Shown one piece after another: positions 4,887-16,731 of a stretch of 64,000 bases of DNA (position 1 is its first letter; the number at the start of each line of letters is the position of its first letter). The position numbers were made by a program, and so were the translations under genes. A model generated the notes under the pieces. The model was given only the letters and a program-made list of their open reading frames with translations, ran no database searches and was not told the origin of the DNA. The DNA is from Geodermatophilus siccatus (GTDB lineage Bacteria; Actinomycetota; Actinomycetes; Mycobacteriales; Geodermatophilaceae): the NCBI RefSeq assembly GCF_900103785.1, contig NZ_FNHE01000009.1, positions 186,001-250,000 on the forward strand, read 5' to 3'.

Positions 4887-5018
4887 GCGCGGCCACATTC
4901 CGGAACCAGAAAGGATCCTCGGTCGGACCCGTTGCGCTGTAGCAGCTCCAGCGACCTGCCGAACACGGGGCAACGGCGCGCACCTGGCGCGCCGATCCCT
5001 CACCGCAGGAGTGCCGGC

Positions 5019-6605
5019 ATGGCGCGCAACCTCTGGTCCGACCGTCCCCTCGGCGTGAAGCTCGGAACGCTGGTCGCTGCCGGCGCCGTCGTCCTCGCCG
5101 TCTTCGCCTGGATCGCCATCCGGGCGCTGCAGAGCACCGAGACCACCGCGGGTGAGCTGCTCGCCAGCGCCGAGGTGACCGGGGACGTGCTGACGGCCGA
5201 CATGATGCACGACGCCGTCCGCGGCGACGTGCTCCAGGCGCTGGTCAGCGGCGGCCAGGGCGACCTCTACCGAGGTGCGGTCACCGACCTGGCCGAGCAC
5301 GACCAGGCCTTCCGCGACCTCCTCGTCGAGATCTCCGGGGACGGCCTGAGCCCGGAGATCGTCGCGGCGGTCGAGGAGGTGACCCCCACCGTCGACGCGT
5401 ACCTCCTCGCCGGCCAGCAGATCGTCACCACCGCCGGGCGCGACCCGGTGGCCGCGCAGGCGGCCTATCCCGCCTTCGGTCAGGCGTTCTCGGCGCTGGA
5501 GGACGAGCTGCCGCTGCTCGAGGACGCCGTGGCGGCGTTCGCGGACGACGCGGTCGCGCACGCGGACGGTCAGCGCAGCACCGCCATCACCCTCGCCCTG
5601 GTGGTCGCGGTCGTGGGGGTGGTCGTCCTGGCCCTGCTCGGCTGGGTGGTCACCCGCTCGGTCGTGCGGCCGCTGCACCGCGTCGGCGCGGTGCTGGCCG
5701 CCATGGCCGACGGCGACCTGCGCGGCTCCACCGGCGTCACCAGCAGGGACGAGGTGGGCCGGATGGCCGCCGCGCTGGAGGCCTCGATGGGCAACGTGCG
5801 GGCCGTCCTGACCTCGATCGGGGAGACCACCGGGACGCTCGCCTCGGCCACCGAGGAGCTCTCGGCGACGGCCCAGGACATGACCCGGCTGGCCGACGAG
5901 TCCTCGGTGCAGAGCGGGGTGGTCGCCGACGCCGCCGGTCAGGTGTCGGTCAACGTGCAGACCGTGGCCGCCGGCTCGGAGGAGATGGGCGTCTCGATCC
6001 GCGAGATCGCGCAGAACGCCAGCGAGGTGGCCCGGGTCGCGGGTCAGGCCGTGCAGGTCGCCGACGCGACGAACGCGACCGTCGCCAAGCTGGGGGAGTC
6101 CTCGTTGGAGATCGCCAGCGTCGTCAAGACGATCACCGCGATCGCCGAGCAGACCAACCTGCTCGCGCTGAACGCCACCATCGAGGCCGCGCGGGCCGGC
6201 GAGGCGGGCAAGGGCTTCGCCGTCGTCGCCAACGAGGTCAAGGAACTGGCGCAGGAGACCGCCAAGGCCACGCAGGACATCACCGCGCGGGTCGAGGCGA
6301 TCCAGGGCGACACCGAGGGCGCGGTGCGGGCGATCGGGGAGATCGCGCAGATCATCGCCCTGATCAACGACTCGCAGGGCACCATCGCCGCCGCCGTCGA
6401 GGAGCAGACCGCGACCACCACGGAGATGAACCGCAACGTCGCCGAGGCCGCGCAGTCGGCCGGGCAGATCGCCGACAACATCACCGCGGTGGCCGGCGCC
6501 GCGACCGCCACGACCCGCGCGATGACCGACGCCCGGACGGCGATGGACGAGGTGGCCCGGATGGCCTCGGCGCTCAGCGCGTCGGTGCAGCGCTTCCGCT
6601 GCTAA
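5019..6605 (+). CDS. methyl-accepting chemotaxis protein
   Basis: A 528-aa transmembrane chemoreceptor. TM1 is at about 13-34, followed by an alanine-rich four-helix-type periplasmic sensor of about 150 residues and TM2 at about 188-211. A HAMP domain follows (about 212-265), then the long methyl-accepting coiled coil with the highly conserved hairpin tip ([19 protein letters not shown], around residues 375-395) that contacts CheA/CheW. The protein ends RFRC without a CheR/CheB pentapeptide. No che genes lie nearby, so it is an orphan receptor. An ATG at 5019, after GCAGGAGTGCCGGC, gives a proper short cytoplasmic N-terminus before TM1. Ligand unknown. Confidence 0.95.
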
Positions 6606-7799: not shown

Positions 7800-7936
7800 G
7801 CCCCGGCCGGGTGACCTCGGGGCGGGAGGTGTCCCGTCCCTGGTCGGCGGACCACGGGCCGGTGGCGAAGACCAGCCGGTGCGCGCCTGCGACGGTCGCG
7901 CCCGCGCGGGTCCAGCACGTGCGTGGAGACGCTCAC
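7800..7936 (-). pseudogene. uraH: remnant of 5-hydroxyisourate hydrolase (uraH), internally deleted
   Basis: A GTG at 7936 overlaps the uraD stop (GTGA), exactly where uraH follows uraD in actinobacterial purine catabolism. The first residues VSVSTHVLD match the invariant UraH N-terminus. In another frame shortly afterwards the text AHRLVFATGPWSADQG appears, which corresponds to the conserved middle of UraH (the RLVFDTG segment and beyond). About 40-45 codons between these blocks are missing, the join is out of frame, and the C-terminal YRGS motif is absent. The simplest reading is an internal deletion plus 3' erosion, leaving a dead gene. Confidence 0.75.
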
Positions 7937-8430
7937 GAGACGAGCTCCCGCACCCGCAGCGCCGTGATCTCGGCCAGCTGACCGGTCACCTCGGCCCGCT
8001 CGGTCCCCTCGTCGTTGACCAGCCGGCGGCGCAGCTCGGCGAGCACCTCCTCCGGGGACCGGCCGGCCGCACGGATCAGGAAGACGTGGCCGAAGCGCTC
8101 CTCGTAGGCCCGGTTGCCCTCGGCCAGCGCGGTCCGCGTGGCGTCGTCCGCCGAGCCCACCGCGCTCTGCTCCCGCCGGGAGGCCTCCGCCTCGGGTGAG
8201 GAGCCCTCGGGCTGCTCGCCGATCCGCGGGTGGACGCTGATGGCCAGCTCGACCTCCTCCCACGGCAGCCCGCGGACGACCTCCTCGGTGCGGGCGACCA
8301 GCGCGTCGACGTCCGGGTAGGGCCGGCCGGCCACCACCGCTGCTGCGAACCGCGGCGCGGCGTTGCACGCCCGGAGGGCCTGGACGGCGCGGTCGGCGGG
8401 CTCGGCGTTGAAGTCGTCGAGGGCGGCCAT
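7933..8430 (-). CDS. uraD: 2-oxo-4-hydroxy-4-carboxy-5-ureidoimidazoline decarboxylase
   Basis: A 165-aa UraD (OHCU decarboxylase), the third step of urate breakdown to (S)-allantoin. Family signatures are CNAAPRFA near residue 25, SVHPRIGE at about 67-74 with the catalytic-region histidine, and the helix EEVLAELRRRLVNDE at the end. The segment EQSAVGSADD is the usual loop. The ATG at 8430 gives full family length. The partner uraH directly downstream is a decayed remnant, so the hydroxyisourate step must be spontaneous or encoded elsewhere. No uricase is in the window. Confidence 0.92.
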   Translation of the reverse strand: MAALDDFNAEPADRAVQALRACNAAPRFAAAVVAGRPYPDVDALVARTEEVVRGLPWEEVELAISVHPRIGEQPEGSSPEAEASRREQSAVGSADDATRTALAEGNRAYEERFGHVFLIRAAGRSPEEVLAELRRRLVNDEGTERAEVTGQLAEITALRVRELVS

Positions 8431-8624
8431 GCGACGAGGATGGCAGCCGGCGGTCCACGTGGCAGGGTCGACGGAGGCCGCCCCCGGAGGACGTCCGCGA
8501 CGAGGCGGGGTGCCCGCCGGCGACCGTCGTCGAGCGGGCCGTCCCGGGCCGACGCGGCGCGCGGGTCCCCCTGCCGTAACCGGCCGTGGCGGCCCCCGAC
8601 CTACCATCCCCTCGTGATGGCGGA

Positions 8625-11600
8625 GTGAACGACGAGGACGCCGACACCTCGCTGTTCGCCGGTGGGGGCGAGGTCGGCCGCGCGATGGCCGCGGTCGACT
8701 GGTCGCAGACGCCGCTCGGCCCGCCGGAGCAGTGGCCCTCCGGGCTGCGCCACACCGTCCGCATCCTGCTGACGTCGCGGTTTGCGATGTGGGCCGGCTG
8801 GGGTCCGGACCTGGCCTTCCTCTACAACGACGCGTACCGGCACGACACGCTGCAGGCCAAGCACCCGTGGGCGCTGGGCCGCCCCGCCTCCGAGGTGTGG
8901 GCCGAGATCTGGCGTGACATCGGGCCGCGCACCCGGGAGGTGCTCGACGGCGGCACCGCCACCTGGGACGAGGACCTGCTGCTCTTCCTGGAGCGCAGCG
9001 GCTACCCGGAGGAGACGTACCACACCTTCTCCTACAGCCCCCTGCCCGACGACGAGGGCGGCACCGGCGGCCTGCTGTGCGTGGTCACCGAGACCACCCA
9101 GCAGGTCGTCGGCGAGCGCCGGATGGGCACGCTGCGCGACCTCGCCGCGGCGCTCGGGGCGGCGCGCTCCGCGGAGGCCGTGCTCGCCGCCACCGCCGAC
9201 CAGCTCGCCCGCAACCCCGTCGACCTGCCGTTCAGCGCCGTGTACCTGGTGGACGACGAGGGCACTGCCCGGCTGGGCGCTGCGGTGGGCATCGAGCCCG
9301 GGTCGCCCGCCGTCCCCCGGGTCCTGACCGACGACTCCGGGACGTGGCCGCTGGCCCGGTTGCTGGCCGGCGACGACGTGCTGGTGGAGGACCTCACCGA
9401 CCTAGGCCCCGGCCTGCCGACCGGTGCCTGGGACCGCGCGCCGGTGCAGGGCGTCGCGCTGCCGATCGCCTCCTCGGCGCCGGAGCACCAGGGGGTGGCC
9501 GGCTTCCTCGTCGTCGGCCTCAACCCGCACCGCCGCTGGGACGACGCCTACCACGGCTTCCTCGGCCTCGTCGCCAACCAGGTCTCCTCCGCCCTCACCA
9601 ACGCCGGCAGCTACGAGGCCGAGCGCCGCCGGGCCGAGGCGCTGGCCGAGCTGGACCGGGCCAAGACCGACTTCTTCAGCAACGTCAGCCACGAGTTCCG
9701 CACCCCGCTGACGCTCATCGCCGGCCCGGTCGCCGAGCTGCGCGCCTCCCCGGCCGCGGCGTCCGACCCGCGGCTGCGCGAGGAGCTCGAGGTGATCGAG
9801 CGCAACGCGCAGCGGCTGGGCAAGCTGGTCAACACCCTGCTGGACTTCTCCCGCATCCAGGCCGGCCGCATCGACGCCCGCTTCGAGCCCGTCGACCTGG
9901 CCGCCACCACCGCCGAGCTGGCCAGCGTCTTCCGCTCGGCCGTCGTCCGCGCGGGGCTGGAGTTCACCGTCGACTGCGCGCCGCTGGACGCGCCGGTGCA
10001 CGTCGACCGGGACATGTGGGAGAAGGTCGTCCTCAACCTGCTCTCCAACGCGCTGAAGTTCACCTTCACCGGCGGCATCGCCGTGCGGCTGCGGCAGGAC
10101 GACGGCGGCGCGCGGCTGACGGTCAGCGACACCGGCACCGGCATCCCCGCCGACGAGCTGCCCCGCCTGTTCGAGCGCTTCCACCGGGTGGCCGACGCCC
10201 GCGGCCGGTCGGGCGAAGGCAGCGGCATCGGCCTGGCCATGGTGCGCGAGCTGGTCGCCCTGCACGGCGGCAGCATCGACGTCGAGAGCACCCCGGGCGC
10301 CGGGACGACGTTCACCGTCACCCTGCCGATGGGCACCGCCCACCTGCCCGCCGACCGGCTGGCCGACGCCGCTCCGGACACGTCCGCGGTCTCGTCCGCC
10401 GCCGTCCCCTTCGTCACCGAGGCCATGCGCTGGCTGCCCGGTGGGGACGGCGCGCCCGGCGCCGAGCTGCCACCGGTCGTCCCGCGCCCGGCCGCGGTCT
10501 CCGGGCGGGTCCTGGTCGCCGACGACAACGCCGACATGCGGGGGTACGTGCGGCGGCTGCTGGGTCCGCACTACGACGTCCGCACCGTCGCGGACGGCCG
10601 GCAGGCGCTCGAGGCGGCGCTGGCCGACCCGCCCGACCTGGTCGTCAGCGACGTGATGATGCCCGGGCTCGACGGCATGGGGCTGCTCGCGGCCCTGCGC
10701 GCCGAGCCGCGCACCGCCCGCGTCCCGGTGGTGCTGCTCTCGGCCCGGGCCGGTGAGGAGGCCGCCGTCGAGGGCCTGGCCGCCGGTGCCGACGACTACC
10801 TGGTCAAGCCGTTCTCCGCGCAGGAGCTGCTGGCCCGCGTCGGCGCGCACCTGGAGCTCGGCCGGGCCCGCCGCGCCGCGGAGGAGCAGTTCACCGCGAT
10901 GGCCGACCTGGCGCCGGCCCTCATCTGGGTGGCCGACCCCGACGGACGTCGGGTGTTCGTCAACCGCGGCTGGACCGAGTTCACCGGCCGCCCGGCCCGC
11001 GAGGAGGTCGGCGACGGCTGGGCGCAGGGCCTGCACCCCGAGGACCGCGACCGCTACGCCGAGGTCGTCGCCGCGGCGACCGCCCGCCGCGAGGGCTGGG
11101 AGGTCGACGTCCGGCTGCGCCGAGCCGACGGCACCTACCACTGGCTGCTGGAGCGGGCCGTACCGATCGGGGGGAGGCCGATCGGTGCCGGGGAGACGTT
11201 CGCCGGGTACGTCGGCAGCTGCACCGACATCAACGCCCGGACCCGCGAGACGGCGCGACAGACGCTGCTCGCCGAGGTCGGCACGGCCCTGGACCGGGAG
11301 ACCACCGTCGAGGGCCAGCTCGGCGCGCTGGCCCGGCTGCTGGTCGACCGGCGCCTCGCGGACCTCTGCACGGCCCGCGTGCTGGGGGACGACGGACGGC
11401 TGCGCTTCGCCGGGGTCGCCGGGCTCCACGGTGCGGCCGAGGCCGCCATGACCGCTCTCGACCCCGACACGGGGATCGGGGCCGAGGTGGTGACGACCGG
11501 CCGGAGCGTGCTGCGGGCGCAGCTGCCCCCGCTGGCTCCCGACCGTCCGGAGATCGCGGAGGCCCTGGCCGTCGGCTCGGGGATGGCGGTGCCGCTGTCC

Positions 11601-13751
11601 GTCCGCGGCCGGGTCCTCGCCGTCCTCGCGCTCGCCCGGCACCCGGACTCGCCGCCGTACGACGACGACGACCGGGTGCTGCTCGAGGAGGTCGCCGGGC
11701 GGGCCGCCCTGGCGGTGGACAACGCGGTGCTGCTCGCCGAGGAGAGGGCGGCGGCGCGGCGGCTGGCGCTGCTGCAGCGGGCGACCGCCGAGCTGTCCGC
11801 GGCGACCACCCCGCTGGAGGTCGCCGAGGTGGCCGGCGGGCACGTCCGCGCGCTGACCGGCCCGGACAGCCGGGTCGCGGTCTACGAGGTCGACCCCTCG
11901 CACCGGGCGCTGTTCGCGCTGGCCATCGACGGTGGCAGCCCGGCCGGCCGGGAGCTCTGGCGGACGCTGCCGATGTCGACCCCGGTGGTGGCCACCACGG
12001 CCGTCAGCGAGCGACGCCCGATCTGGGTCGAGGACTTCACTGCGCAGCCCGCGGCCGACCGCGGACTGGCTCCCGAGCTGGCCGCGTCGGAGCGCGACTT
12101 CGGGCTGGCCGCGGTGGCGGCCCTGCCGCTGACCGTGGCCGGCCGGGTGGTCGGCGTCCTGTCGGTGGCCTGGCCCGAGGTGCGGCGCTTCTCCGCCACG
12201 GACCGGGCGATGCTGCTCGCCGTCGCCGAGCAGTGCGCCCAGGCCCTCGACCGCGCCCGGCTGTACCGGGCCGAGCGGGGCATCGCCGAGACGCTGCAGC
12301 TGAGCCTGCTGCCGGCGCAGCTGCCCGCCCTGGAGCGGCTGGCGCTGGCCGCGCACTACCTGCCCGGCGCCGAGGGCAGCCAGGCCGGCGGGGACTGGTA
12401 CGACGTCGTCGAGCTGGCCGACCACCGGATCGCGATCGCCGTCGGCGACGTCGTCGGCCAGGGGCCGGCCGCCGCCGCGGTCATGGGGCAGCTGCGCAGC
12501 GCGCTCTCGACCGCCCTGCTGCAGGGCTGCGGCCCGGCGGAGGCGCTGGAGCTGCTGGACCGCTTCGCCGCCCGGCTGCCCGGCGCGCTGGCCTCCACCG
12601 CGGCCTGCCTGGTCGTCGACGGCGCGGCCGGCACGGTCTGCTGGGCCCGCGCCGGGCACCCACCGGCGCTGCTGGTGACGCCGGCCGCGGCGCAGCTGCT
12701 CGACGGCGCCGGCTCCGGGACCGTCCTCGGCGTACCCGGACGACGTCCCTACACCGAGGGCACCGCCGACATCGCTCCCGGCGCGACCCTGCTGCTCTAC
12801 ACCGACGGCCTGGTGGAGCGCCGCGGGGAGGTCCTCGACGACGGGCTCGAGCGGGTCCGGGCCGCGGCCGCCCGGCACGCCGCGGCCGACCCGGTCGCGC
12901 TGACCGGGCAGCTGCTCGCCGAGGTCCTCGCCGACGCCGCCCAGCCCGACGACGTCGCGCTGATCGCCGCCCGGCTGCTGCCGGAGCCGCTGGCCGCCCG
13001 GCTGCCCGCCGACCCGCGCCGGCTGTCCGGCGTCCGCCGGGCCGTGGCGGCGTGGACGGCGGCGGCCGGGCTGCCCGGGGACACCGCCGAGGACCTGCAG
13101 CTGGCGCTGGGCGAGGCGCTGGCCAACGCGGTCGAGCACGCCTACGGCGCGTCCCCCGACGACGGCGAGTGCAGCTACCGGCTCGCCCGCGAGGCCGACG
13201 GCAGCGTGCGGGTCGAGGTGCGCGACACCGGCCTCTGGCGGCCGCCGCCGGCCGACCGCGGCTACCGGGGGCGCGGCCTGGAGCTGATCGAGGCGCTGGG
13301 CACCGACGTCGAGGTGGTGCACGCCCCCGGGGTCGCCGGCACCACGGTCCGCTTCCGGGTGGCTCCCGCCGTCCCCGGCCCGGCGGTCCGTCTCGAGCGG
13401 GCGCCGGCAGCTCCCTCGGCTGACGGCGCGACGAGCGTGGCCGTGCACGACGAGTCCGGCGGCCCACGCCTGGAGGTGCACGGCGAGGTCGACCTGGCCA
13501 CCGCGGCGCGGATCCGCCAGCAGGTGCTCGCCCGGCTCGAGCAGCTGGCCCCGGGGGCGGTCGCGACGCTGGACCTCCGGTCGACCGGCTACCTGGCCAG
13601 CGCGGGCGTCGGACTGGTCCTGGAGGCCGTCACCCGGGCACGGCGGGCCGGCGTCGAGCTGCGGGTGCTGACCCGGCCCGGGACCCCGCCGGCGCGGATC
13701 CTCGCCCTGGCGGGGGTCGACGAGCAGGCCTGGGAGGAACTGCAGGCGTGA
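8625..13751 (+). CDS. giant hybrid kinase / PP2C phosphatase / anti-sigma kinase / STAS fusion
   Basis: About 1708 residues with, in order: a PAS-like sensor (about 10-150), GAF (170-330), HisKA with SHEFRTPL and phosphoacceptor His356, and HATPase_c (N-box and GSGIGLAMV; 450-570). Next come a receiver with Asp676 in DVMMPGLDG and Lys in VKPFS, PAS (about 750-880), and two further GAFs (about 900-1220). The C-terminal part has a SpoIIE/RsbU PP2C phosphatase with GGDWYD (metal Asp1257), an RsbW-like ATPase (ALANAVEHAYG, Asn1501) and STAS (YLASAGVG, Ser1659). It thus holds phosphorelay output and every catalytic class of a partner-switching sigma-control pathway in one chain. The start could also be GTG 8586, 13 codons upstream. 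No transmembrane segment is seen, so it is probably cytosolic. Confidence 0.9.
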   Translation: MNDEDADTSLFAGGGEVGRAMAAVDWSQTPLGPPEQWPSGLRHTVRILLTSRFAMWAGWGPDLAFLYNDAYRHDTLQAKHPWALGRPASEVWAEIWRDIGPRTREVLDGGTATWDEDLLLFLERSGYPEETYHTFSYSPLPDDEGGTGGLLCVVTETTQQVVGERRMGTLRDLAAALGAARSAEAVLAATADQLARNPVDLPFSAVYLVDDEGTARLGAAVGIEPGSPAVPRVLTDDSGTWPLARLLAGDDVLVEDLTDLGPGLPTGAWDRAPVQGVALPIASSAPEHQGVAGFLVVGLNPHRRWDDAYHGFLGLVANQVSSALTNAGSYEAERRRAEALAELDRAKTDFFSNVSHEFRTPLTLIAGPVAELRASPAAASDPRLREELEVIERNAQRLGKLVNTLLDFSRIQAGRIDARFEPVDLAATTAELASVFRSAVVRAGLEFTVDCAPLDAPVHVDRDMWEKVVLNLLSNALKFTFTGGIAVRLRQDDGGARLTVSDTGTGIPADELPRLFERFHRVADARGRSGEGSGIGLAMVRELVALHGGSIDVESTPGAGTTFTVTLPMGTAHLPADRLADAAPDTSAVSSAAVPFVTEAMRWLPGGDGAPGAELPPVVPRPAAVSGRVLVADDNADMRGYVRRLLGPHYDVRTVADGRQALEAALADPPDLVVSDVMMPGLDGMGLLAALRAEPRTARVPVVLLSARAGEEAAVEGLAAGADDYLVKPFSAQELLARVGAHLELGRARRAAEEQFTAMADLAPALIWVADPDGRRVFVNRGWTEFTGRPAREEVGDGWAQGLHPEDRDRYAEVVAAATARREGWEVDVRLRRADGTYHWLLERAVPIGGRPIGAGETFAGYVGSCTDINARTRETARQTLLAEVGTALDRETTVEGQLGALARLLVDRRLADLCTARVLGDDGRLRFAGVAGLHGAAEAAMTALDPDTGIGAEVVTTGRSVLRAQLPPLAPDRPEIAEALAVGSGMAVPLSVRGRVLAVLALARHPDSPPYDDDDRVLLEEVAGRAALAVDNAVLLAEERAAARRLALLQRATAELSAATTPLEVAEVAGGHVRALTGPDSRVAVYEVDPSHRALFALAIDGGSPAGRELWRTLPMSTPVVATTAVSERRPIWVEDFTAQPAADRGLAPELAASERDFGLAAVAALPLTVAGRVVGVLSVAWPEVRRFSATDRAMLLAVAEQCAQALDRARLYRAERGIAETLQLSLLPAQLPALERLALAAHYLPGAEGSQAGGDWYDVVELADHRIAIAVGDVVGQGPAAAAVMGQLRSALSTALLQGCGPAEALELLDRFAARLPGALASTAACLVVDGAAGTVCWARAGHPPALLVTPAAAQLLDGAGSGTVLGVPGRRPYTEGTADIAPGATLLLYTDGLVERRGEVLDDGLERVRAAAARHAAADPVALTGQLLAEVLADAAQPDDVALIAARLLPEPLAARLPADPRRLSGVRRAVAAWTAAAGLPGDTAEDLQLALGEALANAVEHAYGASPDDGECSYRLAREADGSVRVEVRDTGLWRPPPADRGYRGRGLELIEALGTDVEVVHAPGVAGTTVRFRVAPAVPGPAVRLERAPAAPSADGATSVAVHDESGGPRLEVHGEVDLATAARIRQQVLARLEQLAPGAVATLDLRSTGYLASAGVGLVLEAVTRARRAGVELRVLTRPGTPPARILALAGVDEQAWEELQA

Positions 13752-13853
13752 CGACGCGCACATTGGGCACCCCTCGGGTGATCGGGGGTGGGCGTGCACG
13801 AGGATGACGCGGCACCCGGCCCGAGCTCTCGGCCGGAGGGAGGACCGGACGAG

Positions 13854-14852
13854 GTGGACCGAGCGGTGGGCGGGGCCCGGGCGCCGCTTCCACGCCCGCG
13901 GAGCGGCGTCGGGTCCCCGGTCCTGTCGCGGCACGCCGCCGCGGTGGTGCGCGGGGACGCCGACCTGCTGGCCGTGGCCCTGCCCTTCCTCGACGCCGGG
14001 CTGCGCGCCGGGGACGTCGTCGCGCTGGCCTGCCCGCCCGACGTCGTGGCGCTGCTCTGCGGCGAGCTCGGTGAGCGCGCCGGGCAGGTCCGCGACGACC
14101 CGCGGCTGAGCCTGCTCGGTGCCCGGGCGCCCGACGCGCTGGCCCACGCCCGGCAGACCGCCGAGCAGGCGGGCAACGGACAGCTGCGCGTCCTCTCCCT
14201 CGTGGACTTCGGGCCCACCCCGGCCGGCTGGCGCGAGGGGGTGCGGTTCGAGTCGGCGACCAACCGGGTGGTGCAGGGCACGCCGGTCGACTGCCTCTGC
14301 CTCTACGACCGGCGCCGGCTGCCCGCAGCGGTCGTCGAGACCGCTGCCACCACCCACCCCTTCCTGGTCGTCGACGGTGCGTGGGCGCCGAGCCCGGTCT
14401 ACCGCGACCCGGCGGAGTACCTGCCCCGGCTGCCGTGGCCGCGGGAGCCGGTCGAGGACACCGAGCCGGTGCTCGCCCTCGACGACGTCCCCACCCTGGT
14501 GGCGCTGCGCCACGGGATCGGCCGGGTCCTCGCCGACCGGGTGCCCGACCGCGACCAGCGGGAGGACCTGCACCTGGCCGCCGCCGAGGTCGCCGCAAAC
14601 GCCTTCCGGCACGGCGTCCGGCCGGTGTCGGCGCGGATGTGGACCGACGGGGATCGGCTGGTCTGCGCCATCACCGACTCCGGGCACTCCTTCGGCGACC
14701 CGCTGGCCGGCTTCGTGCCCGCCCACGGCGCCGACCTCGGCCGTGGCGGCATGGGCCTGTGGCTGGCCCGCAAGCTCTGGGACTCCGTCGACCTGCTGCC
14801 CGGTCCCGACGGGCTCACCGTCCGGCTCAGCACCCGCCTGCGCCGCGCTTGA
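13854..14852 (+). CDS. RsbA-like anti-sigma regulator: MEDS sensor + RsbW-type ATPase
   Basis: About 332 residues. The N-terminal half (about 20-180) is a MEDS/DcmR-like sensory domain (RHAAAVVRGDADLLA, the VRFESATNRV segment, CLCLYDRR). The C-terminal half is an HATPase_c_2 kinase-like domain with N-box AAAEVAANAFRHG and GGMGLWLARKL. This architecture is that of RsbA-family anti-sigma/sensor proteins. It lies 102 bp behind the giant partner-switching protein and probably belongs to the same sigma-factor control circuit, which is inference. The GTG at 13854 was chosen because GGAGGGAGG sits about 9 nt upstream; an in-frame GTG at 13788 is the alternative. Confidence 0.8.
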   Translation: MDRAVGGARAPLPRPRSGVGSPVLSRHAAAVVRGDADLLAVALPFLDAGLRAGDVVALACPPDVVALLCGELGERAGQVRDDPRLSLLGARAPDALAHARQTAEQAGNGQLRVLSLVDFGPTPAGWREGVRFESATNRVVQGTPVDCLCLYDRRRLPAAVVETAATTHPFLVVDGAWAPSPVYRDPAEYLPRLPWPREPVEDTEPVLALDDVPTLVALRHGIGRVLADRVPDRDQREDLHLAAAEVAANAFRHGVRPVSARMWTDGDRLVCAITDSGHSFGDPLAGFVPAHGADLGRGGMGLWLARKLWDSVDLLPGPDGLTVRLSTRLRRA

Positions 14853-14885: not shown

Positions 14886-15380
14886 GTGGGGGACGCCGTC
14901 GACCAGATCCTGGCCCAGTGGGCCCGGGAGCGGCCCGACCTCGACTGCAGCCCGATGGGCGTCATCGGGCGCATCTCCCAGCTGCAGCGCGAGGTCCACC
15001 TCGCCCAGCGCGCCACCTTCGCCCGCCACGGTCTCGACGTCCCCTCCTTCGACGTGCTGGCCGCGCTGCGCCGAGCCGGGGCCCCGTACCAGCTGACCCC
15101 CTCCGCGCTCATGCGGACCGCCCTGGTCACCTCCGGCGCGATCACCCAGCGGCTGGACCGGCTGGAGGAGAAGGGGCTGATCACCCGTGAGCGCAGCGAG
15201 GCCGACGGGCGGGCCGTCGTCGTCACCCTGACCGAGGCCGGCCGGGCGGCGCTCGACGCCGCGCTGCCCGACCACCTGGAGACCGAGCGCCGGCTGCTGG
15301 CCGGGCTCCCCGACGACGATCTCGACGCCCTCGCCGGCCTCCTGCGCCGCCTGCTGGTCGCCCTCGGCCGCGTGCCCTGA
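14886..15380 (+). CDS. MarR-family transcriptional regulator
   Basis: A 164-aa winged-helix regulator. The recognition region LTPSALMRTALVTSGAITQR is followed by the wing LEEKGLITRERSEADGR, which is the canonical MarR signature (DRRxxxVxLT appears as DGRAVVVTLTEAG). N- and C-terminal helices for dimerisation are present. It is preceded immediately by a perfect palindrome that probably is its own operator. The next gene is convergent, so no obvious target gene is adjacent. The inducing ligand is unknown. Confidence 0.92.
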   Translation: MGDAVDQILAQWARERPDLDCSPMGVIGRISQLQREVHLAQRATFARHGLDVPSFDVLAALRRAGAPYQLTPSALMRTALVTSGAITQRLDRLEEKGLITRERSEADGRAVVVTLTEAGRAALDAALPDHLETERRLLAGLPDDDLDALAGLLRRLLVALGRVP

Positions 15381-15390
15381 CACTGTCGGC

Positions 15391-16731
15391 CTAGTAGGCC
15401 GACCATGTGAACGGCTGGCCGGTGGCCTCGAGCACCGAGAGCCACAGGTCGCCCTGGGGGTCGACCTGGTTGCGGCTGGCGGTGGCCAGCGCGATGGGCA
15501 CGTGCACGAACCGGCCGTGCCAGCGGCCGACGACGGTCGCCGTCCGGCCGGCCATGGCGGCGTGGACGGCGGCCTGCGCCAGCCGTTGGCAGTAGACGCT
15601 GTCGAAGGGGTTGGCCGGCACGCTGCGGATGGCGTAGCCCGGGTCGACGTAACGGAGGCTGATGTCGCGGCCGCCGTCCCTCGCCGCGGCGGTGATCCGG
15701 TCGCGCAGCAGCGCGCCGACGTCACCCAGCCGCAGGTTGCCCGAGGCGTCCCGGTCCTGGGGCTGTCCCGCGAAGAGCTCCTGCCCGGCGCCCTCGGCGA
15801 CGACGACCACCGCGTGCCCCTGCCGGTCGAGCACCCGGTCGAGGTGGGCCAGGAGCCCGTCGAGGTCGAGGGGCACCTCGGGCACGAGGACGACGTCGAC
15901 GTCCTCGCTGGCCAGCGACGCGTAGGCGGCGATGAAGCCCGAGTGCCTGCCCATCAGCTTGATCAGCCCGACCCCGTTCGGCGTGGACCGCGCCTCGGTG
16001 TGCGCGGCCCGGATCGACTCGGCGGCCCGGCCGAACGCGGTCTGGAAGCCGAAGCTGGCGTCGATCCACGGGATGTCGTTGTCGATCGTCTTGGGGATGC
16101 CGACGACGGCGATCGGCAGGCCGCGGCGGGTGGCCTCGTCGGCGATGTCCTGCCCACCGCGCAGGGTGCCGTCGCCGCCGATGACGAACAGGACGTCGAT
16201 GCCACGCGCGACGAGGGTGTCGACCATCTCGGCCGGGTCCTGGCCGCCGCGGGAGGTCCCCAGCACCGTGCCGCCCTGGTCGTTGAGCCCGCGGACGGCG
16301 GCCGGCGTCAGCTCGACCGCGTCGGCCGCACCCGCGCGGTTCAGACCGCGGTAGCCGTTGCGGAAGCCGGTCACCGAGGCGACGCCGTAGTGGCCGCACG
16401 CCTCCAGCACCAGGCCGCGGATGACGTTGTTCAGCCCGGGGCACAGCCCGCCGCAGGTGACGACGCCGACGCGGGTGCGGGGCGGGTCGAAGAACAGCCG
16501 GGAGCGCGGTCCGCCGGGCTCGAAGGCGGGCAGCTCGCGGGTGGGCAGCCCGCGGCGCACCGCCATGTCGAGGGTGTCGTCGAGCAGCACCCGGTCGGTC
16601 TCGGCGACGTAGTGGACGCTGTCCCGCGGGTCGAGCAGGGAGCCGTCCAGCGGGGAGGGGACGGTCGCCGGGCCCAGGGTGCGGACCGTCAGGTCGGCCG
16701 CCGTCAGGCAGAGCTGGTCTCCGGTGTGCAC
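15391..16731 (-). CDS. 6-phosphofructokinase (plant-like ATP-PFK clade)
   Basis: A 446-aa group-A phosphofructokinase with an N-terminal extension of about 85 residues before the VGVVTCGGLCPGLNNVI core. The nucleotide motif IGGDGTLRGG is at about 179-188; Gly rather than Asp at the discriminating position favours ATP over PPi. The catalytic PKTIDNDI is at about 210-217, with MGRHSGFIAA for fructose-6-phosphate and PSNPFDS-like ANPFDSVYCQ near the end. The mix of PKTIDND with GGDGT is typical of the plant/spirochete-like long clade. It would catalyse the committed step of glycolysis. It is a single-gene unit, convergent with marR. Confidence 0.88.
   Translation of the reverse strand: MHTGDQLCLTAADLTVRTLGPATVPSPLDGSLLDPRDSVHYVAETDRVLLDDTLDMAVRRGLPTRELPAFEPGGPRSRLFFDPPRTRVGVVTCGGLCPGLNNVIRGLVLEACGHYGVASVTGFRNGYRGLNRAGAADAVELTPAAVRGLNDQGGTVLGTSRGGQDPAEMVDTLVARGIDVLFVIGGDGTLRGGQDIADEATRRGLPIAVVGIPKTIDNDIPWIDASFGFQTAFGRAAESIRAAHTEARSTPNGVGLIKLMGRHSGFIAAYASLASEDVDVVLVPEVPLDLDGLLAHLDRVLDRQGHAVVVVAEGAGQELFAGQPQDRDASGNLRLGDVGALLRDRITAAARDGGRDISLRYVDPGYAIRSVPANPFDSVYCQRLAQAAVHAAMAGRTATVVGRWHGRFVHVPIALATASRNQVDPQGDLWLSVLEATGQPFTWSAY

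Follow-up and report, generated by a model that had tools for sequence, protein, structure and literature searches.

The closest solved relative of the locus reported here is Rv1364c, for which PAS, PP2C, GHKL and STAS domains are described in one chain. Ser600 of its own STAS domain is reported to be phosphorylated and dephosphorylated by its own kinase and phosphatase domains (PMC10950880, PMC7693655, PMC9138534). SigF binding in vitro has also been reported for this protein (PMC10950880, PMC7693655). The RsfB serine (residue 61 or 63 by species) is described as phosphorylated, and one mycobacterial (M. smegmatis) RsbW homologue as phosphorylating RsfB while being unable to bind SigF directly (PMC10950880). 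Histidine kinases are reported to control the receiver-PP2C phosphatases of partner switches in RsfSR and RsbKY, with opposite signs: phosphorylation raises RsbY activity and lowers RsfR activity. The receiver of RsbK has been proposed as inhibitory (PMC4574943), and sensory domains, receivers included, have been proposed to drive such phosphatases via coiled-coil linkers (PMC12143880). In SiaABCD, SiaC is described as a regulator of the SiaD diguanylate cyclase (PMC9239204).

How does the new locus compare? The window analysed is a stretch of 64,000 nucleotides from Geodermatophilus siccatus (contig NZ_FNHE01000009.1), in which a reading frame on the forward strand is open from a GTG at 8586 to 13751. 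The in-frame GTG at 8625 is a plausible start and gives a chain of 1708 aa. An earlier note, made from the letters alone, had proposed a single chain of the order PAS-GAF-HisKA-HATPase-REC-PAS-GAF-GAF-PP2C-RsbW-STAS, and the open frame and Pfam matches bear this out. The features, with window positions and domains called by Pfam, are:

4932-6605, forward: chemoreceptor, upstream flank
7933-8607, reverse: OHCU decarboxylase gene, divergent, just upstream of the fused chain
8625-13751, forward: fused chain
8805-9107, forward: N-terminal PAS, residues 61-161 (PAS_4, E 8e-7, over cut-off, on the isolated segment)
9165-9596, forward: GAF 1, residues 181-324 (GAF_2, E 9e-6, 26.4 bits, below the cut-off of 28.6, on the isolated segment)
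9660-9866, forward: HisKA, residues 346-414, His356 codon at 9690-9692
10005-10331, forward: HATPase_c of the histidine kinase, residues 461-569, N and G boxes conserved
10509-10841, forward: receiver (REC), residues 629-739, Asp676 codon at 10650-10652
10953-11177, forward: second PAS, residues 777-851 (PAS_3)
11379-11723, forward: GAF 2, residues 919-1033 (GAF_3)
11817-12251, forward: GAF 3, residues 1065-1209 (GAF_2)
12420-12977, forward: SpoIIE-type PP2C phosphatase, residues 1266-1451
13002-13358, forward: RsbW-like GHKL kinase domain, residues 1460-1578 (HATPase_c_2)
13470-13721, forward: STAS, residues 1616-1699 (STAS_2), Ser1659 codon at 13599-13601, Ala before Ser
13788-14852, forward: RsbA-like gene, MEDS plus HATPase_c_2, 354 aa, starting 36 bases past the fused chain's stop
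14886-15380, forward: MarR regulator, downstream flank
15391-16731, reverse: phosphofructokinase, downstream flank

We read the chain as an Rv1364c-type one-chain partner-switch module whose sensory front is a complete hybrid histidine kinase, and give this reading, with the signal flow proposed below, a probability of about 60%. The PP2C-RsbW part of Rv1364c (3KE6) is the closest solved match to the C-terminal part (E 5e-36). An AF2 model of PP2C-RsbW-STAS, computed from 43 rows (the window's chain and those of all 43 STAS-bearing loci except L027), has a mean pLDDT of 89.6 and a pTM of 0.85. This confident model fits a packed PP2C-RsbW-STAS unit in which the STAS docking site is not given. 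Comparison with 3ke6 yields a Z of 30.2 over 340 residues at an rmsd of 7.7, a large value which suggests that the two domains of the model are oriented differently from those of the crystal. SiaA is a further match to the PP2C of the model (Z 25.3 over 223 residues, rmsd 2.5). Tethering of kinase to antagonist, which the earlier note had set against the usual separate proteins, has a precedent: Rv1364c is a one-chain PP2C-GHKL-STAS protein that acts on its own STAS serine, and tethered kinase and antagonist were therefore already known. The key residues present in the window's chain are His356, Asp676, Lys728, the PP2C aspartates, Glu1497, Asn1501 and Asp1534 of the RsbW-like domain and Ser1659 of STAS; we take their catalytic roles from their families. 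When the 30 full chains were aligned with the window's chain (31 rows), Asp1257, Asp1275, Asp1394, Asp1442 and Asp1443 of PP2C, all three RsbW residues and Ser1659 were found in every row.

Could so long a chain be an artefact? It runs without internal stops in all 13 Geodermatophilus genomes searched, the window's among them. In 12 the alignment reaches at least residue 1696, and in G012 it ends at residue 1454. Public genomes were scanned for relatives with the C-terminal 446 residues as query, and 80 loci were kept of at least 144 confirmed relatives; counts over the 80 describe nearest relatives, not actinobacteria at large. To call modules in these loci, we derived domain models from the domains of the window's chain and the matches to them. 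How frequent is the domain order, as the earlier note had wondered? A PAS-GAF-HisKA-HATPase-REC front at one end and PP2C-RsbW-STAS at the other were found in 30 of the 80 kept nearest relatives, and the exact eleven-module order of the window in 17. The front and PP2C-RsbW occur with no in-chain STAS in a further 14, and three other kinase-fronted chains (L038, L045, L061) are cut by contig ends. Since one open frame recurs in 13 of 13 genus genomes and in 30 of the 80 kept nearest public loci, two sets that probably share species, we rule out a sequencing or assembly error. An order-wide draw of 16 genomes, again including its own, gave a whole-chain alignment only in the window's own genome, while in five others only the front aligned, within frames of 1312-1856 aa (front half compared). 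A literature search covering few subscription-journal papers found no published description of this architecture.

The earlier note had also raised the possibility that the chain is split by a sequencing error in relatives. A split does exist: Streptomyces, Amycolatopsis and Mycobacterium relatives encode STAS in a gene of its own. It is not an error, because it recurs across many species and, without the divergent rows, its carriers group together with support. Among the 80 kept nearest relatives, 15 kinase-fronted chains lack an in-chain STAS, the 5'-truncated L061 counted. A STAS gene lies directly downstream of 13 of these, its frame ending 299-338 bases past the chain's stop; the exceptions are L033, with STAS in a larger frame starting 574 bases on, and L073, where none was found. 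Such a same-strand STAS frame also follows 10 of the 21 STAS-lacking chains without a kinase front. It was found within 800 bases downstream of none of the 43 loci with an in-chain STAS, though one of the STAS models used was built from Streptomyces free STAS, so that weak STAS frames could be missed. In the annotated Streptomyces plasmid pair, whose split architecture is confirmed by Pfam, the chain and STAS genes overlap by one base.

Trees were built for the front (49 rows) and the core (81 rows), and on a reduced set of 41 kinase-fronted rows; the six rows dropped (L040, L033, L024, L054, L073, L027) are long or divergent, with one duplicate. On the 41 rows, front and core trees each part STAS-bearing from STAS-lacking chains by one supported branch, and AU tests do not reject a grouping of Geodermatophilus/Blastococcus with the STAS-lacking chains (p 0.64 and 0.56). 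When every row is kept, each tree takes 3 changes to account for the STAS-lacking chains with a kinase front, and the core tree over all rows requires at least 6 changes for the front and at least 3 for STAS. Repeated fusion of front and core had been suggested by an apparent conflict between the 49- and 81-row trees, a conflict that is gone on 41 rows with one split per tree; the two parts may have been joined once or several times. The main value of the finding is this natural split/fused series. Split versions in Streptomyces and Amycolatopsis and fused versions in Geodermatophilus, Actinomycetospora and Pseudonocardia make the effect of tethering directly testable in soil bacteria.

The two forms differ at the residue before the phospho-serine. 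Asp holds this position in 23 of 24 free STAS adjoining STAS-lacking chains. Of the 24, 14 adjoin chains with a kinase front, among them the annotated Streptomyces pair, and 10 adjoin chains without one; the distance or strand filter removed L033, which has Asp, and L072, which has Ala and lies on the opposite strand. Not one of the 44 fused STAS (the window and 43 loci, 31 of these with the kinase domain) has Asp, the residue being Ala in 25, Ser in 14, Pro in 4 and Thr in 1, and the phospho-serine position itself is Ser in all 44. The earlier statement that all key residues are intact is thus right for the residues listed above and incomplete at this position, where the Asp usual in free STAS relatives is Ala in the window's chain.

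Does Asp before Ser mark free STAS in general? Such a rule is ruled out by the window's own genome, where 15 of 18 STAS_2 matches were read and the five in short frames show Asp (3), Gly (1) and Asn (1), and by solved RsfB, which has Gly before its residue 63. The in-chain STAS of a 616-aa chain in the same genome shows Ser, and in the remaining nine the motif pattern picked up no site of this kind. Judged on these alignments, the contrast holds between fused chains and STAS genes adjoining split ones; the STAS rows share ancestry and are not independent, so it may represent one event. A tentative account, to which we give well under even odds, is that fusion of STAS to the kinase created a self-contained phospho-switch. 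RsbW would now be a dedicated kinase, and a second anti-sigma protein (in Geodermatophilus/Blastococcus, the RsbA-like neighbour) would have become the output. As cis binding would no longer need Asp before the phospho-serine, this residue would have drifted to Ala, Ser or Pro.

Which protein might receive the signal? That an RsbA-like protein directly follows the chain, as first noted from the open reading frames, is confirmed by the 36-base spacing and by a match over the cut-off of the curated NCBIfam model NF041045 (222.8 bits vs 210). All 10 Geodermatophilus/Blastococcus full-chain loci (L009-L018) have this gene next after the chain, and the conserved adjacency suggests a joint function. 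It is not downstream in the other 20 of the 30 full-chain loci, and so cannot be a universal target. A weaker RsbA-like relative lies just upstream in L020, L025 and L027, and 17 of the 30 have no RsbA-like gene within the fetched flank; none was found at L052 either (record titled Geodermatophilaceae bacterium, chain without the kinase front).

Sigma factor genes were sought by profile search for SigB/F/G types. One match in the genome exceeds the SigBFG cut-off (C19:338923-339594, on another contig than the chain), and eight further matches lie below it, the best four at 90-144 bits. No SigB/F/G-type match was found on the window's contig, C7; the sigma gene that stands beside its regulators in classical sigB/sigF operons is missing from the window locus. 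Only one of the 80 kept related loci, L054, has a SigF-type gene nearby, contig ends shortening some of the fetched flanks. Of the genome's 34 HATPase_c_2 matches, 23 are over the cut-off, a set that probably takes in ordinary histidine kinases; for STAS_2 the figure is 15 of 18. With so many matches for a single SigB/F/G factor, sequence alone does not justify pairing the in-chain RsbW with a sigma factor. The SigF-type locus itself (G000:C19:338923-344133; L089, L003, L108) consists of the sigma gene, a HATPase_c_2 gene that is UsfX-like by position, and the divergent 616-aa chain, with a nearby STAS that has Gly before Ser, as in RsfB. The 616-aa chain is a second, shorter PP2C-RsbW-STAS chain, which makes the window's chain the second one-chain switch of this genome.

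These searches bear on the intramolecular competition envisaged by the earlier note, in which the in-chain RsbW holds a sigma factor and the dephosphorylated, tethered STAS displaces it. RsbW, STAS and the short linker are indeed conserved together, with 25-52 residues between the domain envelopes in the 30 full chains, and SigF binding in vitro is reported for Rv1364c. We nevertheless consider such competition unlikely. A tethered antagonist at high local concentration would presumably keep sigma off unless phosphorylated; neither the window's contig nor the fetched flanks of 79 of the 80 kept related loci supply a SigB/F/G-type match; the sole locus with a nearby SigF-type gene, L054, carries no in-chain STAS; and the one factor over the cut-off stands against many RsbW-like domains in the genome.

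The front half combines a HisKA with its His, a HATPase_c and a receiver with its Asp in one chain, as hybrid histidine kinases do. It had been called a full phosphorelay. The His-to-Asp step is encoded, but no Hpt and only one receiver stretch were detected within the chain (Pfam, E <= 0.01), and the front is therefore a hybrid histidine kinase rather than a full phosphorelay. Might it be mainly a structural or sensory scaffold, with PAS/GAF signals setting the phosphatase and the His-Asp step mattering little? Three Pseudonocardia chains (L040, L043, L049) have lost the phospho-His, and their receivers have changed acidic-pocket or Lys positions with Asp676 retained; L036, a related Pseudonocardia chain, has no recognisable HisKA/HATPase. 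All four keep the switch core: here the kinase step has been lost in nature, and some members thus do without the His step. As a general account, a scaffold nonetheless seems doubtful to us: His356 is kept in 28 of 31 aligned chains and Asp676 in 31 of 31, and all four losses fall within one Pseudonocardia group.

Related fronts occur elsewhere. At G000:C12:159440-162184 (L002:937-3729, reverse strand) lies a 930-aa paralogue with 51% identity to the front half, in which an RsbW-like domain directly follows the hybrid histidine kinase and both PP2C and STAS are absent. A front-only second match was seen in 12 of the 13 genus genomes, its C-terminal part being known from the window's genome alone. 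A plasmid of the alphaproteobacterium Azospirillum brasilense (L103:3495-7799) encodes a PAS-GAF-HisKA-HATPase-REC-PAS front that shares 54% identity with residues 2-872, in a chain that also carries a second HisKA and two further receivers. The front looks like an exchangeable cassette. A stretch of a Sinorhizobium plasmid (L102:3001-6684) is 42% identical to residues 1-1215; the PLSDB table has no gene there, a table that is incomplete, and the original record may still list one.

An output other than a sigma factor, with STAS regulating another protein as SiaC does the SiaD diguanylate cyclase, would accord with the single SigB/F/G factor set against numerous STAS and HATPase_c_2 matches, with the reported SiaABCD precedent (PMC9239204) and with the SiaA match of PP2C. 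It is improbable given that Geodermatophilus/Blastococcus chains have kept a gene of the RsbA family, anti-sigma in type, as their neighbour and that the nearest solved relative, Rv1364c, is reported to bind SigF.

How, then, might a one-chain partner switch with a hybrid-kinase front work? PAS/GAF signals would set autophosphorylation of His356 and transfer to Asp676, and the receiver, second PAS and two GAFs may set PP2C activity through helical linkers. PP2C would strip phosphate from Ser1659 of STAS and the RsbW-like domain would restore it, the predicted output being dephosphorylated STAS that binds a GHKL anti-sigma protein. This target most likely acts in trans, the candidates being the RsbA-like neighbour and the HATPase_c_2 protein beside the single SigF-type gene. 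By analogy with the division of labour described for the M. smegmatis RsbW homologue, the in-chain RsbW may be mainly a dedicated kinase. We counted in favour of this explanation the domain order and key residues, the Rv1364c match and the action of that protein on its own STAS serine, RsfSR/RsbKY control, the coiled-coil linker proposal, the RsbA-like adjacency, the SigF-type locus and the confident AF2 model. Counted against it were the lack of a SigB/F/G match on the contig and near all but one of the 80 kept related loci, the loci with no RsbA-like neighbour, the Pseudonocardia His losses and the kinase activity of Rv1364c, which is reportedly disputed, a 2008 title reading 'Loss of kinase activity'.

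Several known systems share part of this design. In RsbK/RsbY of Bacillus cereus and RsfS/RsfR of Mycobacterium smegmatis, a histidine kinase and a receiver likewise govern an antagonist-resetting PP2C. Those are separate proteins, a hybrid kinase and a receiver-PP2C protein in the RsbK/RsbY type, whereas the window has one chain with PAS-GAF-GAF between receiver and PP2C. OsaC of Streptomyces coelicolor is described as a general-stress phosphatase with GAF and PAS in front, and is set apart by that description, which includes no hybrid kinase front (PMC12143880). The Streptomyces fungicidicus 'SpoIIE family protein phosphatase' WP_121549475.1 has the hybrid-kinase front, PP2C and RsbW in one chain; its STAS, in contrast, is the next gene (WP_040905273.1, 'STAS domain-containing protein', 1-base overlap) and has Asp before Ser. 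Rv1364c remains the best match in sequence and structure, with PP2C, RsbW-like and STAS domains in the same order in one chain and a phosphorylatable serine in the STAS. It differs in having a single PAS in front and 653 aa, against a hybrid histidine kinase plus PAS-GAF-GAF and 1708 aa here. What is new beyond Rv1364c is the hybrid-kinase front, the split/fused series and the Asp contrast before the phospho-serine. Within one conserved molecule, His-Asp phosphorylation is linked to Ser phosphorylation, these being the main signalling currencies of bacteria. The chain is a new combination of known modules that extends the mycobacterial one-chain switch, not a new kind of system.
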